Source: Sporanaerobium hydrogeniformans (GTDB lineage Bacteria > Bacillota > Clostridia > Lachnospirales > Cellulosilyticaceae). Taken from it: DNA of 64,000 bases. Position numbers and translations under genes: made by a program. The stretch is taken from positions 1-64,000 of the forward strand of contig NZ_PEDL01000017.1 in assembly GCF_002735925.1 (NCBI RefSeq), written 5' to 3'. The notes beneath the pieces were generated by a model. The model was not told the origin of the DNA. It searched no databases and was given only the letters and a program-made list of their open reading frames with translations. Below are positions 1,260-63,560 of this stretch, piece after piece (within the stretch, counting starts at the first letter, position 1; every line of letters begins with the position of its first letter).

Positions 1260-1705
1260 GACTGCTCTCCCCTTTCTGCTAACAAGTCTAAAACGGCATG
1301 CTTCGTTGTATAGTCTTGCCCATCTAGTATGACTTGCATTCCAAACCTTGTTTCTTGCTGAATAACAAGGGGTGCCATAAGATTAAGAGTAGCTGTTTCT
1401 ATCTCTCCTTTTACACTTACCATGGCGAAAACACTGAAATTTTTCAAATCTCCTCCGCCTAATTGTTGGAAGTAGTGCTTTGCAATAGCTGGTTCATAGT
1501 CTGGCTTAAACAAATAAGGATTAGTAAGAATAAAACAAATAGCTTCATCTTCTATACTTTGTAAATAACAAAAAGGACTTTCCTCTTCCTCTTCAATGAT
1601 AATAAATTGTTTAAGCTCCTCAAACCCTGGAATTCCTTCTTTAAAGGTAATAAATTTTTCTTCTCCTATTTCAATATCCCCAAAGCTTTTTGTTTTTAAT
1701 AACAT
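1253..1705 (-). CDS. fliW: Flagellar assembly factor FliW
   Basis: FliW binds both CsrA and free flagellin. When flagellin accumulates in the cytoplasm FliW is held by it, freeing CsrA to shut off flagellin translation. Family features: start MLLKTKSFGDIEIGEEKFI, then EGIPGFEELKQF, the acidic EEEEESPFCYLQS segment and a VMAPLVIQ-like strand (NLMAPLVIQQETRFGMQVIL). I use the ATG at 1703-1705, which follows GAGGAGGG; the longer reading adds 11 residues that FliW proteins lack. It lies between flgL and csrA and overlaps csrA. The B. subtilis yviE gene that precedes fliW is absent here. Confidence 0.95.
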   Translation of the reverse strand: MLLKTKSFGDIEIGEEKFITFKEGIPGFEELKQFIIIEEEEESPFCYLQSIEDEAICFILTNPYLFKPDYEPAIAKHYFQQLGGGDLKNFSVFAMVSVKGEIETATLNLMAPLVIQQETRFGMQVILDGQDYTTKHAVLDLLAERGEQSC

Positions 1706-14283: not shown

Positions 14284-14397
14284 CATACGTCCTCATCTTA
14301 CGCGTTAGCCGCGTCGGAATTGGCACCTTTGCATACTTGCTAGGTTGCCGGGTTTCATAGGGCCTGGTCCCTCCACCTCTCTGGATAAGTGTTCGTA
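14284..14397 (-). ncRNA. SAM-I (S-box) riboswitch aptamer
   Basis: Minus strand carries the S-box core: CTTATCCAGAGAGGTGGAGG, then GACCAGGCCCTATGAAACCC, GGCAACC and AAGGTGCCAATTCC, closed by P1 (CTTATC / GATGAG). These match the conserved SAM-I positions, including the GATGAG closing strand. With the downstream terminator it should repress metK when SAM binds. Confidence 0.96.
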
Positions 14398-55006: not shown

Positions 55007-55049
55007 GTTACTATTGATTTTTATATATTTTAAACACAATGAAAAGGAC

Positions 55050-55297
55050 TAGTACTATTTTTGAAGCGGCGAAGCGAGTGGGGTTGGTGTAAGCCCATAC
55101 GATAGAAAATAGGAAAAATCACCTTGGAGTGGCAGACCGAACCTCGATCTTTGATGAGTGTAGGCTCTGACGGTTTCCTCCCGTTACCATAAGGAAAGGT
55201 ATAACGAGTGGTCTTATAGAAGGCAAATCAGGTGGTACCGCGGAAGATGACTTTATGATGTTCTTTCGTCCTGTTGATGGATGAAGGAGCTTTTTTA
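55050..55297 (+). ncRNA. T-box leader of ileS
   Basis: Senses uncharged tRNA and controls readthrough. The T-box sequence GGTGGTACCGCGG lies at 55231-55243 inside the antiterminator. The terminator stem is about 55261-55290 (TTCTTTCGTCC / GGATGAAGGAGC, with G-U pairs) followed by TTTTTT. A candidate specifier ATC (Ile) is at 55147-55149, agreeing with the downstream gene, though I could not draw Stem I fully. This leader fills the 388-nt gap between the transporter and ileS. Confidence 0.92.
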
Positions 55298-55355
55298 ATG
55301 CTCTAAAATCCAAAACTATCCATTTTATTTATAGAATCTATTTAGGAGGATGACT

Positions 55356-58986: not shown

Positions 58987-59919
58987 TTAGAATAACTTCT
59001 TTTTCATCATAAAGATGGTAAGTATCGCGGTTAATACAATAGATATAATAAGGATATAGAGAAAGGCCATAGGGTTGTTTTGAAGCGGAACATCTACGTT
59101 CATCCCCCATAAGCTAGCAATCATAGTAGGTATAGAAAGGACAATCGTAATAGATGTAAGTGTCTTCATTACAATATTTAAGTTATTTGAAATAACAGAT
59201 GCAAAGGCATCCATTGTCCCACTTAATATGTTGCTGTAGATATTAGCCATCTCGATAGCCTGTTTGTTTTCGATAATAACGTCTTCTAGTAAATCTTCAT
59301 CTTCTGGGTACTGTTTAATAGCTTCCATGCGCATCATCTTTTCCAGTACAATTTCATTAGCACGAAGTGAGGTTGTAAAATAAACCAAACTCTTCTCTAG
59401 ATCTAAAAGCTGGATAAGCTCTTTATTTTTCATAGATTTATGAAGCTCTTGTTCAATCTTATGACTCATACGATCAATGTAGCGTAAGTACTGTAAATAG
59501 GAAGAAGCATTTTTATACAAGAGTTGTAAAATAAAACGCGTTTTCTTAAAGGTAAAAAACCCTTTGATTTTGCCTGAACTAAAGTCCTCTAAAATTTGTA
59601 CATTTTTAAGACAGGCTGTAATAATAAATTTATCTCCCACAATAATACTCATAGGAATAGTTGCATATTCCCCAGCACCTTCTTCTGATTCTTTAATGGG
59701 TACGTCCACAATGATCACTGTACAGTTATCATCTACTTCAATACGTGCACGTTCTTCCTCATCCAGTGCAGATAAAATATGGTTCACTTCGATGTTAAAT
59801 ACTGAGGATACTTCATTGATTTCTTGGGGGGTAGGATTGATTAAGTTAATCCATGCTCCCTCTTCAAAGACATCTATTTGTTTAAGTCCCGTTTCAAATG
59901 TTTTATAAATCTTTTTCAT
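58987..59919 (-). CDS. corA: CorA-family magnesium transporter
   Basis: Mg2+/Co2+ channel, 310 aa. Long soluble N-terminal domain with helical funnel (LHKSMKNKELIQLLDLEKSL), then two membrane helices, the signature GMN in IASLWGMNVDVPLQ, and a basic C-terminal KKKLF. All core features are present. I take the ATG at 59917-59919; the ATG three codons earlier is an alternative. The 200-nt leader upstream contains overlapping helices that can hide the ribosome site, so translation is probably regulated. Confidence 0.95.
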   Translation of the reverse strand: MKKIYKTFETGLKQIDVFEEGAWINLINPTPQEINEVSSVFNIEVNHILSALDEEERARIEVDDNCTVIIVDVPIKESEEGAGEYATIPMSIIVGDKFIITACLKNVQILEDFSSGKIKGFFTFKKTRFILQLLYKNASSYLQYLRYIDRMSHKIEQELHKSMKNKELIQLLDLEKSLVYFTTSLRANEIVLEKMMRMEAIKQYPEDEDLLEDVIIENKQAIEMANIYSNILSGTMDAFASVISNNLNIVMKTLTSITIVLSIPTMIASLWGMNVDVPLQNNPMAFLYILIISIVLTAILTIFMMKKKLF

Positions 59920-59925
59920 TTTACA

Positions 59926-60073
59926 CATCCTTTGCCCTTACTCTAATTTACCACAAAGGATGGCACACAAATAAAGCTATCAAAAGCAATAAATTAGAGT
60001 GTAGATTATTTTATTCAATTTCATTCTGCTACGCCTATAACTCGGTCCGACGTCCATTAATGGTCACACACTC
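59926..60073 (-). promoter_or_regulatory. Two-state structured leader of corA (candidate translational riboswitch)
   Basis: On the minus strand: element 1 GAGTGT (60068-60073), element 2 ACACTCTAATTTA (59990-60002), element 3 CATCCTTTG (59954-59962), element 4 TAAATTAGAGT (59940-59950), element 5 CAAAGGATG (59926-59934, holding the ribosome site). Perfect pairings: 1 with the ACACTC part of 2 (closing a 65-nt domain); 2 with 4 (11 bp); 3 with 5 (9 bp, hides the ribosome site). 2:4 and 3:5 exclude each other, and 1:2 competes with 2:4. The 65-nt enclosed domain matches no riboswitch class I recognise. This describes most of the 304-nt gap between corA and the 51-aa ORF. Confidence 0.7.
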
Positions 60074-60127
60074 CTTTTTATTATGATATTTTACTTTACT
60101 TTTTATCAATTTTATCTATCCTTTCTA

Positions 60128-60156
60128 ATACTATTTTATTCTATTATGTATGTCAA
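60128..60156 (-). promoter_or_regulatory. Sigma-A promoter of corA
   Basis: Minus strand TTGACA (60151-60156), 17-nt spacer, TAGTAT (60128-60133). Transcription would begin near 60120, giving a leader of about 200 nt. Confidence 0.75.
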
Positions 60157-60189
60157 GCAAATTAACACTGACTTTATACTTTATTTATA

Positions 60190-60219
60190 CAAAAAGGTGG
60201 CTAAGTGCCACCTTTTTGT
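60190..60219 (-). terminator. Terminator after the 51-aa ORF
   Basis: Stem AAAAAGGTGGC / GCCACCTTTTT with 3-5-nt loop, right after the small ORF; also screens corA from read-through. Confidence 0.9.
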
Positions 60220-60222
60220 ATT

Positions 60223-60378
60223 TTAATAAATTTTTCCTGCTTTTGCCTTACCTGTTTTTGCTTTACCTTGTATTTCTGGGACAGGTGTCTCACTATTTTT
60301 AGAAAAATGTGCCTTTGAATTGCTTTCTGTTCCATGAGGTTCATTAACATCAGGTCTTTTCATCCCTGCTTTTGCCAT
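60223..60378 (-). CDS. Small conserved-looking basic protein, 51 aa
   Basis: Short gene on the minus strand. It reads MAKAGMKRPDVNEPHGTES through a middle with HFSKNSETPVPEIQGKAK to a lysine/alanine/glycine-rich end. AGAAGGTTGGTG precedes the ATG (60376-60378) and a perfect terminator follows the TAA by four bases. From memory, similar proteins beginning AKAGMRRP and containing PHGTESN and VPEIQGKAK occur in many clostridia, without known function. It has no signal peptide or membrane helix. Both flanks being transcription signals support it as a real gene. Confidence 0.7.
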   Translation of the reverse strand: MAKAGMKRPDVNEPHGTESNSKAHFSKNSETPVPEIQGKAKTGKAKAGKIY

Positions 60379-61358: not shown

Positions 61359-63476
61359 TTAATGCTTTTTAAGTGCCTCTATAAAAAATCCCTGATGCTT
61401 CCCTAAAATTCTCATTGAGTTTATAACTGCTAAAAGGGAAACACCTACATCTGCAAAAACTGCAAGCCACATATTAGCAATACCTATAAGCCCTAACAGA
61501 AGTATCAGCACTTTAATGCCTAATGCAAAAATAATATTTTGCGTTACAACCCTTCTGGTTCTCTTAGCTACATCTAGTACATCGCCTATAGAACTAAGGC
61601 TATCTGTCATAAGCACCACATCAGCTGCTTCAATAGCTGCATCTGAACCAACGCCTCCCATGGCAATCCCAATATCTGCTCTAGCTAAAACCGGAGCATC
61701 ATTTATACCATCTCCTACAAAGGCTACCTTTCCTTCCTCAAGCTCCTTTTCTAAGTGCCTTACCTTATCTTGTGGTAAAAGTCCTGCATACACCTTATCT
61801 ACGCCTACTTGCTTACCAATGTATTCTGCAAACTCCTTCCTGTCCCCTGTTAGCATAATAATTTTTTTAATGCCTCTTGCTTTTAAAGCTTTAATAGCCT
61901 TCTCGCTATCTTCTTTTACTTGATCTGCTACAATAATACAACCTAGATAACGTCCATTTTTTGCTACATGGACTCTTGAACCTAATTCATTGGTGTCCAT
62001 AACAGACAAGTTATGAGCTTTCATAAGCTTTTCATTTCCTACTAGTAAACTTTCTCCTTTTACTTTACCAACTAAACCTTGGCCACTTACTTCTTCATAA
62101 TCGCTCACTTTAAGCCCTTCAAGTTTTTCTTTACCATAAGCTTTAACAATAGACCTTGCAATAGGATGATTAGAAAGACTCTCTAGCTGTGCAGCTAATC
62201 GTAAAATTTCTTCTTCACTACCTTCCTTTACTAAAATATGTGTCACATCAAAGCTTCCTTTGGTAATGGTCCCTGTCTTATCTAACACAATGGTATCAAT
62301 AGCATTTAACTCTTCTAAATAGTTACTTCCCTTTACAAGCACACCTTGCTTAGATGCTGCCCCAATCCCTCCAAAAAAACCCAGAGGTACAGATACTACT
62401 AAGGCACAAGGACAAGAGATAACAAGAAATACGATACTTGTATAGACCCAATGCTCTATATCTCCTGTTATAATAGAAGGAATAATTGCTACAAGTAAAG
62501 CCCCTAGCACTACAAGAGGCGTATACCACTTTGCAAATTTCGTAATGAATTGCTCGGAGTGAGATTTTTTACTACTTGCACTTTGAATAAGTTCTAATAT
62601 CTTAGATACTGTACTTGTTTCAAAGACTTCTGTTACTCTTACTTCAAGTAGACTATTTTGATTAATGGAACCACTTAATACCTGATCCCCCACTGTTACT
62701 TGAACAGGCAAAGATTCTCCTGTAAGCATAGAAGTATCTAGTGTCCCCATTCCTTTAATAACAATGCCATCTAGTGGTATCTTTTCTCCTGGCCTTACTT
62801 CAATGATTTCCTCTCTCTTTACTTCCTTAGGATGAACGGTAAGGACTTTTTCTCTTATAACTCGTGCAAAATCAGGACGAATATCCATCGCCTTTTCAAT
62901 CTGTCTAGTAGAATAGTCTACAGCCCTACCTTGTAAGTATTCACCTATCTTATAAAAAATCATAACCGCAACTGCTTCTGGATATTCACCGATTATAAAG
63001 GCTGCCACTGTAGCTAAAGTCATTAAAAAGTTTTCATCTAGCATACGTCCCTTTAAAAGGTTTTTTATAGCTTGCCAAATAACATCATATCCAACAACTC
63101 CATACGCTACTATCATAAAAATATCTTGCTTTAAAACACTTCCTAATAAAAGGAGCGAGATACTTGCTACGAGTGAAATCAACTCTCTATGTATAGGAGA
63201 GTGACTGTGCTCTTGTGAGTCATCCTGCTCTAACGCTACTTGCTGTTTTCCTTTTGGATAGATAATCTCTACACCTCTCTCGATGTCATCAACAATCCCT
63301 TGGATATAACCCCTAAGCTCTTCTTTATCCACTTGCTGCCTTACCTCTAAAGTAAGCTTCTTTAACATGAAATTTAAGGTAACTGCTTCAAACTGATTGG
63401 ATCCTCTTAGTTTTTCCTCTATCTTGTTAGCACAGTGTGCACAGTTTAAATTAAGAATTTCATATTCATATCTCAT
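61359..63476 (-). CDS. Zn/Cd-exporting P1B-type ATPase
   Basis: Heavy-metal efflux ATPase, 705 aa. The N-terminal HMA domain carries Cys12 and Cys15 (NLNCAHCANKI); a His-rich linker (EHSHSPIH) follows. Membrane motif CPCALVVSVP; phosphorylation DKTGT; HP motif SLSNHPIARS; GDGINDAP. The last helices have FADVGVSLLAVINS, whose Asp is typical of the Zn/Cd/Pb (CadA/ZntA) group, not Cu. Start is the ATG at 63474-63476 (GAGGAGGAG upstream); a longer reading of 28 residues crosses the operator. An ArsR-type operator and promoter precede it; no regulator is encoded nearby. Confidence 0.93.
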   Translation of the reverse strand: MRYEYEILNLNCAHCANKIEEKLRGSNQFEAVTLNFMLKKLTLEVRQQVDKEELRGYIQGIVDDIERGVEIIYPKGKQQVALEQDDSQEHSHSPIHRELISLVASISLLLLGSVLKQDIFMIVAYGVVGYDVIWQAIKNLLKGRMLDENFLMTLATVAAFIIGEYPEAVAVMIFYKIGEYLQGRAVDYSTRQIEKAMDIRPDFARVIREKVLTVHPKEVKREEIIEVRPGEKIPLDGIVIKGMGTLDTSMLTGESLPVQVTVGDQVLSGSINQNSLLEVRVTEVFETSTVSKILELIQSASSKKSHSEQFITKFAKWYTPLVVLGALLVAIIPSIITGDIEHWVYTSIVFLVISCPCALVVSVPLGFFGGIGAASKQGVLVKGSNYLEELNAIDTIVLDKTGTITKGSFDVTHILVKEGSEEEILRLAAQLESLSNHPIARSIVKAYGKEKLEGLKVSDYEEVSGQGLVGKVKGESLLVGNEKLMKAHNLSVMDTNELGSRVHVAKNGRYLGCIIVADQVKEDSEKAIKALKARGIKKIIMLTGDRKEFAEYIGKQVGVDKVYAGLLPQDKVRHLEKELEEGKVAFVGDGINDAPVLARADIGIAMGGVGSDAAIEAADVVLMTDSLSSIGDVLDVAKRTRRVVTQNIIFALGIKVLILLLGLIGIANMWLAVFADVGVSLLAVINSMRILGKHQGFFIEALKKH

Positions 63477-63497
63477 ACGACTCCTCCTCATCCTAAT

Positions 63498-63521
63498 ACA
63501 TATGAATGAATGTTCATATGT
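63498..63521 (-). promoter_or_regulatory. ArsR/SmtB-type operator
   Basis: Perfect inverted repeat ACATATGAA-N6-TTCATATGT, close to the ArsR/SmtB (CadC/CzrA) operator form. It lies directly downstream of the -10 box, so a bound repressor would block transcription of the metal ATPase and release it when metal binds. Confidence 0.82.
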
Positions 63522-63531
63522 TATAATATAT

Positions 63532-63560
63532 ATCATATGTACCTCATTTAAAATTGTCAA
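63532..63560 (-). promoter_or_regulatory. Sigma-A promoter of the metal ATPase gene
   Basis: Minus strand TTGACA (63555-63560), 17-nt spacer, TATGAT (63532-63537). The start of transcription would fall at the edge of the operator. Confidence 0.8.

Follow-up and report, generated by a model that had tools for sequence, protein, structure and literature searches.

Genes and features at the corA locus

The window analyzed here is the whole 64,000-nt stretch of DNA. On its minus strand, corA (58987..59919) encodes a CorA-like Mg2+ transporter of 310 aa (Pfam PF01544, E = 7.4e-56). Comparison with homologues gave MKKIYKTF as the N-terminus, and a start at 59928 was replaced by the likely ATG at 59919 on the basis of homologue alignment. 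A promoter-like sequence lies upstream (60128..60156, minus strand; -35 TTGACA, -10 TAGTAT, 17-nt spacer), and similar TTGAC..TAnTAT sequences are found upstream of homologous leaders. A preliminary description of this DNA had named it a sigma-A promoter. Both boxes are present at 60156-60128, but such sites were not above chance in a scan (7 found vs 11.0 expected). Just upstream of this promoter are a small ORF (MAKAGMKRPDVNEPHGTESNSKAHFSKNSETPVPEIQGKAKTGKAKAGKIY, 60378-60223, minus strand) and then a terminator-like hairpin.

The corA leader contains an upstream ORF (uORF) at 59980..60057 (minus strand), which runs from ATG to TGA and encodes a putative leader peptide of 25 aa, MDVGPSYRRSRMKLNKIIYTLIYCF. 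A Shine–Dalgarno-like AAGGAG (60071..60076, minus strand) precedes its ATG with a long spacer, 13 nt in the window and 11–13 nt in relatives. Codons 2–9 of the uORF (GAC GTC GGA CCG AGT TAT AGG CGT, for D V G P S Y R R; 60031..60054, minus strand) are conserved, and they form the core of what the preliminary description took for an aptamer.

Three pairings on the minus strand had been described for this leader, and all three were present. P1 joins GGAGTGTG (60067..60074), which overlaps the uORF Shine–Dalgarno, to TACACTCT (59996..60003) within the uORF, with GAGTGT (60073-60068) facing ACACTC (60002-59997). P2, the anti-sequester, joins 59986..60000, an arm ending 3 nt ahead of the uORF stop codon, to 59940..59954. 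Its core is ACTCTAATTTA (60000-59990) with TAAATTAGAGT (59950-59940), and it reaches 15 pairs if G-T is allowed. P3, the sequester, joins CATCCTTTGT (59953..59962) to GCAAAGGATG (59926..59935). The 5' arm of P3 lies in the P2 loop and shares its last bases with the P2 3' arm. The 3' arm holds the corA Shine–Dalgarno-like AAAGGA (59933-59928), and the core of P3, CATCCTTTG (59962-59954) with CAAAGGATG (59934-59926), spans this likely ribosome site. P2 and P3 are mutually exclusive. They recur with different sequences in leaders of relatives from the Cellulosilyticum family (hereafter, the family), indicating that the pairings are more than chance, and the proposed translational control by an anti-sequester and a sequester hiding the corA ribosome site was upheld in this respect. 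P1 was predicted at the matching place in nine of the ten family leaders, with its 5' arm at or after the uORF Shine–Dalgarno; in G002, a different helix covers the uORF Shine–Dalgarno. When the leader was folded without a ribosome, P1 and P3 formed (z = -2.21), and 5 of 200 shuffles gave an equally good fold.

Rfam covariance models gave no match on the corA leader at the gathering threshold. At E up to 5, nine weak matches were obtained in 59850-60250. All nine were at 60138-60250, where the terminator-like hairpin precedes the promoter, and none was on the leader. An M-box identity of the corA leader was rejected, as RF00380 matched neither at gathering nor at E ≤ 5. These results agree with the earlier statement that the domain lacks the conserved bases of the M-box and fits no class recognized there, and the Rfam search proposed there as a check returned no known class. 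The lack of an Rfam match is evidence against known riboswitch classes only.

Other features of the window were also recorded. A T-box leader (RF00230, 115.8 bits) lies at 55030-55276 (plus strand) and is closely followed by a long ORF at 55350, which by eye resembles an isoleucyl-tRNA synthetase. A SAM-I riboswitch (RF00162, 79.2 bits) is at 14290-14391 (minus strand). A large ORF at 61359-63560 (minus strand) reads by eye like a heavy-metal P-type ATPase.

Conservation of the uORF in the family

The core was searched in an order-level sample of 392 genomes with a strict 24-nt pattern allowing up to 3 mismatches. It was found in eight genomes (0–3 mismatches), all within the family and always ahead of corA. 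A relaxed pattern gave ten of the 392, nine in the family plus G100. CorA at ≥57% identity was present in 17 of the 24 family genomes (a tally of 18 includes one distant match). The uORF was carried by 10 of these 17 corA leaders, eight with the strict core and two with divergent forms (G016 and G002), and no uORF was seen in the other seven, by eye or by rule.

The uORF frame was open over 22–26 codons in all ten homologues. The third frame of the same region was broken in 10/10 and the second in 8/10. Start codons were ATG or GTG only (10/10), behind an AGGAG- or GGGAG-type sequence. The peptides start with MDVGPSYRR (five), MDVGPSYRY (two), MDVGPSCRR (one), MEAEPSCRW (G016), and MDIGPSSPRY (G002, with an in-frame 3-nt insertion). 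Changes among homologues were conservative at the amino-acid level (D/E, V/I/A, G/E), and the C-terminal halves varied in sequence and length. Judged by this pattern of change, the conserved part of the leader is a coding sequence, the 25-codon uORF, which is probably translated. The 65-nt domain had been regarded as the aptamer of a new riboswitch class. This assignment was abandoned in view of the coding pattern (the open frame in 10/10, the conservative amino-acid changes, and the in-frame insertion): its segments are conserved in the collected corA leaders of relatives, but they are conserved as a coding leader.

A CorA tree, which took in 22 of 46 intended rows, placed the seven family corA genes without a uORF in a single group, with G002 branching at the base; the uORF may therefore have been lost there. 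A phage origin of the core was also considered and rejected; there was one weak phage match, and no viral contig carried the core.

Ribosome position and opening of the corA ribosome site

The energy needed to open the corA ribosome site was computed with a ribosome placed at each uORF codon, folding only the RNA downstream of it. Over the ten family leaders, opening cost 2.4–7.3 kcal/mol for a ribosome at codon 8 and 8.4–17.4 kcal/mol for one at the uORF stop, a mean rise of 6.44 kcal/mol. In 25 dinucleotide-shuffled leader sets the mean rise was -0.53 kcal/mol (sd 0.59, max 0.53). For single leaders, none of the 25 shuffles matched the observed rise in nine of ten. The exception, G019, had almost no switch (rise 1.3, equalled by 4/25 shuffles) and no clear step. 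The cost stepped up at codons 14–16 in eight of the ten leaders and at codons 18–19 in G015. Without a ribosome, opening cost 3.5–9.7 kcal/mol, nearer the closed state in most leaders. When pairing across the ribosome footprint was allowed (model M2), the open state was much narrower and limited to few positions.

In silico, early hold-up thus corresponds to ON, completion of the uORF to OFF, and no translation to mostly OFF. Drop-off predicts a ribosome-free, mostly closed leader, and stalling or queued ribosomes would therefore be needed for a clear ON state.

M-D-x-[D/G]-P uORFs outside the family

Among 147 genomes sampled from the class, 51 had CorA relatives (E ≤ 1e-40). Their leaders were examined with a rule requiring a Shine–Dalgarno, a start, D/E, any residue, D/E/G, and P, in an ORF of 8–60 codons. 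The rule matched in 24 of 64 corA leaders, namely 10/17 in the family and 14/47 at class level; the other 33 of the 47 class-level leaders had no match. L098, L099, and G472 (the weakest CorA match) were left out of the class-level count, and L106 had no recognizable start. In several loci, among them L047, L083, L084, L087, L091, and L095, the corA start was placed wrongly by the script. The remainder of these corA loci gave no match (370,346 bases, counting both strands), and the corA uORF was the sole match in the whole window. Residue 4 was D in 13 of the 14 class-level matches and G in L074, whose CorA is the closest outside the family (68%) and whose uORF reads MDSGP. Other families share the amino-acid start M-D-x-[D/G]-P while their nucleotides differ. 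Near the corA region of G494, L074 also has a weak fluoride riboswitch match (1393-1464, minus strand; 36.5 bits, cut-off 34).

The pattern GAGGTG-N2-9-start-D-x-D-P was searched genome-wide in 391 Clostridia genomes and 398 phylum-wide genomes. In Clostridia it occurred at 21 places, with 16 as short uORFs before corA, two before mgtE, and three at the starts of longer ORFs. In the phylum-wide set there were 27 places: nine before corA, six before mgtE, and 12 other. Over both sets, a Mg2+ transporter gene follows at 33 of the 48 places (25 corA and 8 mgtE), and reversed-pattern controls gave five matches in the Clostridia set and seven in the phylum-wide set. The pattern was devised with the first uORFs from Clostridia already in view, and eight of the 16 Clostridia corA places had been seen before, in the corA leaders examined. 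The phylum-wide set is the independent test; 16 of its 398 genomes are shared with the Clostridia set, none of them with a match. The link to Mg2+, which had been guessed from corA alone, is strengthened by this association of M-D-x-[D/G]-P uORFs with Mg2+ transporter genes.

The nine phylum-wide corA places were assigned by tblastn (six), Pfam (L144), and the N-terminus of the L144 protein (L145 and L169). Pfam analysis of three downstream proteins confirmed one CorA and two MgtE. The 12 phylum-wide places not tied to a Mg2+ transporter are L146-L149, L151, L159-L162, L165, L166, and L170. In two of them (L149 and L151, from two genomes of one family), a 63-aa ORF starting MDADP behind GAGGTGGTG precedes a gene that by eye resembles an ABC-transporter permease. 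In L144, L145, and L169, an MDGDP uORF precedes the gene for a CorA from a different subfamily (L144 matches PF01544), with a SAM riboswitch match upstream on the opposite strand. The L150 ORF has 85 codons and overlaps mgtE, and the L155 and L156 uORFs lie 285–320 nt before corA.

D2, D4, and P5 are present in 38 of the 39 uORFs outside the family, but 33 of the 39 were found by the pattern that demands these residues. The residues after P5 vary freely. The G016 peptide in the family has E2, E4, and P5. The window peptide has D2 and P5, but G4 (MDVGP). With only one acid among its first five residues, it is a weaker match to the destabilizing motif than MDxDP.

The ribosome-position calculation was extended to leaders outside the family. 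Of the 27 leaders that could be tested, 18 had a rise above 1.5 kcal/mol; the mean was 2.75 against -1.19 kcal/mol for shuffles (12 each). The remaining 9/27 had no such rise, and in L156 the cost fell by 5.3. Eleven further leaders, whose uORF stop is within 26 nt of the transporter start or overlaps it, were left out, as was L150. Alternative structures freeing the corA site on incomplete uORF translation are thus predicted in silico for 9/10 family and 18/27 outside leaders.

M-box riboswitches upstream of the uORFs

Rfam was run on the 39 leaders outside the family, comprising the 33 pattern places and six further ones. An M-box was found upstream of the uORF on the same strand in 18 of them, about 44–409 nt before it. 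These distances were taken from coordinates, and the far cases (up to 409 nt) may include an intervening gene. In five leaders (L124, L129, L137, L152, and L164), the order is M-box, intrinsic-terminator-like hairpin, M-D-x-D-P uORF, and corA or mgtE; 13 more have an M-box upstream of the uORF.

No M-box was found in the ten family uORF leaders or in ten corA leaders without a uORF (sampled from 40). The M-box link is therefore indirect for the corA of the window. M-boxes do occur elsewhere in three family genomes, G000:C22 (L056), G001 (L057), and G002 (L055), and those in G000 and G001 are beside an mgtE-like gene. In these two genomes, corA and mgtE would therefore have different Mg2+ leaders. 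Three observations suggest Mg2+ as the signal for the corA leader: the gene context, the peptide motif, and the presence of M-boxes in relatives.

Proposed mechanism and alternatives

Sequence comparison and computation gave a conserved ORF, alternative pairings, an in-silico dependence on ribosome position, and a link between uORFs and transporter genes. Our main reading, to which we assign a probability of about 0.8, is that corA is under translation attenuation, with the leader peptide operating the switch and low Mg2+ as the likely signal. The best reading of the peptide is a Mg2+-responsive, translation-aborting leader peptide of the mgtQ/mgtL kind known from enterobacteria.

In such a switch, a ribosome held up or lost in the first uORF codons (D2..P5, then S-Y-R-R) would leave the P2 5' arm free. 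P2 would form and exclude P3, and the corA Shine–Dalgarno would be free (ON). On reaching the stop codon, a ribosome that finishes the uORF would cover the P2 5' arm; P3 would then form and hide the corA Shine–Dalgarno (OFF). With no ribosome, P3 and P1, which would also tie up the uORF Shine–Dalgarno, would tend to form, giving a mostly OFF state. Low cellular Mg2+ would probably be the signal, hampering ribosomes that translate acidic/Pro N-termini, and the Mg2+ channel would be made when Mg2+ is short. We infer both the sign of this response and its triggering event, stalling or drop-off.

A leader-peptide switch could also answer to a cue other than Mg2+, such as charged tRNA for rare AGG or CCG, a ribosome-targeting antibiotic, or slow elongation. 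Rare codons are conserved in the uORF (in the ten corA genes, CCG accounts for 8 of 83 Pro, AGG for 3 of 95 Arg, and GTC for 15 of 183 Val codons), and S-Y/C-R, beyond the acidic/Pro part, is kept in 9/10 family leaders. Such a cue is nevertheless unlikely in view of the M-D-x-D-P uORFs, which genome-wide precede two unrelated families of Mg2+ transporters, often behind an M-box.

Lower still is the probability that the leader is a true riboswitch, with the GGACGTCGGACCGAGTTATAGGCG core binding Mg2+ or some other ligand as an aptamer and being readable as an ORF by accident. This idea draws on the near invariance of the core in the DNA of eight genomes (0–3 mismatches) and on the codons CCG, AGT, and AGG, which are identical in 10/10 family leaders. 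By comparison, one codon is kept at 9 of the 151 amino-acid-invariant columns of the ten corA genes (M and W left out), or at 21 of 209 when only the eight strict genomes are counted. This invariance goes beyond what the peptide needs and therefore points to some RNA- or codon-level role of the core, so that a residual RNA role may exist beside coding. The substitutions, however, follow codons (D/E, V/I/A, G/E, an in-frame insertion, and an ATG/GTG start), and in relatives outside the family M-D-x-[D/G]-P is retained with different nucleotides. Rfam, as described above, had no match on the leader. A core hairpin seen in the MFE fold was dropped because GGCG is changed to GGTA in G008 and G015 while the opposite side is unchanged. 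Finally, that the uORF and helices are kept for a small functional peptide or for mRNA stability, with no regulation of corA, would fit the conserved N-terminus but is highly improbable given the divergent C-terminal halves and a ribosome-position switch far beyond that of shuffles.

Returning to the Mg2+-responsive leader peptide, we consider it reasonably probable that it belongs to a wider system. Bacillota would have widespread Mg2+-sensing M-D-x-[D/G]-P leader peptides before unrelated transporters (corA and mgtE), often in tandem behind an M-box, with N-termini that are hard to translate serving as the sensor. Alongside MgtL, mgtQ, and CorL, they would represent a cross-phylum Mg2+ gauge. 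The MDVGPSYRR form shares a CorL-like MD-x-P-S-[RYW] start, which is possibly a specific nascent-peptide motif.

Comparison with known Mg2+ leaders

If this reading is true across Clostridia and beyond, ribosome stability would be a general gauge of Mg2+. Leaders with both an M-box and a peptide would place one gene under two sensors of the same ion, one acting directly through RNA and the other through the ribosome. The case also illustrates that a conserved leader peptide may be mistaken for a novel class of riboswitch.

In enterobacteria, the sensing of Mg2+ through translation has been worked out for mgtL (PMC11282234), corL (PMC11552253), and mgtQ (PMC8092293). No paper on such Mg2+ leader peptides in Bacillota was found among the literature matches listed, which is not proof of absence. 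A recent survey reports eight candidate uORFs, and the mgtE motif that it lists occurs in Thioalkalivibrio only (PMC11109978). A mycobacterial M-box followed by a conserved uORF has been described (PMC12810186). Through Pro codons, the m1G37 of tRNA has a reported connection with Mg2+ homeostasis, and frame keeping at CC[G/A] depends less on m1G37 (PMC6335274).

The corA motif of Gammaproteobacteria is, like the leader studied here, a corA leader, and a divalent-metal response was proposed for it (Stav et al. 2019, PMC6429828). It was reported there in Gammaproteobacteria only, and our comparison is with its description. In enterobacteria it probably overlaps the corL ORF. The M-box (ykoK, RF00380) also occurs in leaders of Mg2+ transporter genes and often lies upstream of the M-D-x-D-P uORFs outside the family. 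Unlike the structure described here, it is absent from the corA leader and, in the genome of the window, precedes an mgtE-like gene.

CorL (YsgD, NF041266) is likewise encoded by a uORF before corA, in enterobacteria, and its translation is reported to be inverse to corA expression (PMC11552253). Its N-terminus, MDTPSRYW (MDTPSRCW in Kosakonia), resembles MDVGPSYRR, MDVGPSYRY, and MEAEPSCRW; the E. coli CorL read from its TTG start is MDTPSRYWLTILSSRINS. One of three CorL relatives (Kosakonia) has C for Y at residue 7, and the family peptides show the same swap. In the N-terminal comparison of CorL with the family, residue shuffling gave p = 0.009–0.07, and the median score was reached by 1 of 194 other Shine–Dalgarno-preceded starts. 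We regard the CorL-like N-terminus of the family peptides as suggestive only. Membership of the family uORF in CorL was rejected, as none of the eight peptides tested of the ten matched the NF041266 profile (cut-off 30 bits), which gave E. coli CorL 52.5 bits. The corA upstream stretches of L072 (Stammera) and L073 (Pseudoalteromonas) had no CorL-like uORF in the script output. The reported output of CorL is Rho-dependent, unlike the site sequestration proposed here.

MgtL, which precedes mgtA, has acidic and Pro codons at 2–5 (EPDP), with an acid, an acid, and Pro at positions matching the Clostridia M-D-x-D-P. EPDP is reported to destabilize ribosomes at low Mg2+, and no mgtA reporter is detectable once E2 and D4 are changed (PMC11282234). 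A Mg2+ response through acidic codons and ribosomal protein L31 counts among the defining traits of the mgtL/mgtQ type. MgtL differs from the leader studied here in its output, described as Rho-dependent termination rather than sequestration, and in its acids, as the window peptide (MDVGP) has one.

mgtQ, in the Salmonella mgtC-mgtB intergenic region, is a short ORF with an acidic/Pro start before a Mg2+ transporter gene, and its output is translation initiation, as proposed for the window. Its acids are at residues 2 and 5 (D2 and E5), with Pro4. As reported, stem-loop 2:3 frees the mgtB ribosome site, whereas 1:2 and 3:4 hide it, loss of the mgtQ start codon lowers mgtB, and hampered mgtQ translation raises it (PMC8092293). 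Stem-loops 1:2 and 3:4 against 2:3 would correspond to P1 and P3 against P2 in the window. mgtQ differs in having eight codons and in lying inside an operon, before the P-type ATPase gene mgtB, whereas the uORF of the window has 25 codons and precedes corA in a member of Bacillota. The sequence relation between the two is the acidic/Pro start alone.
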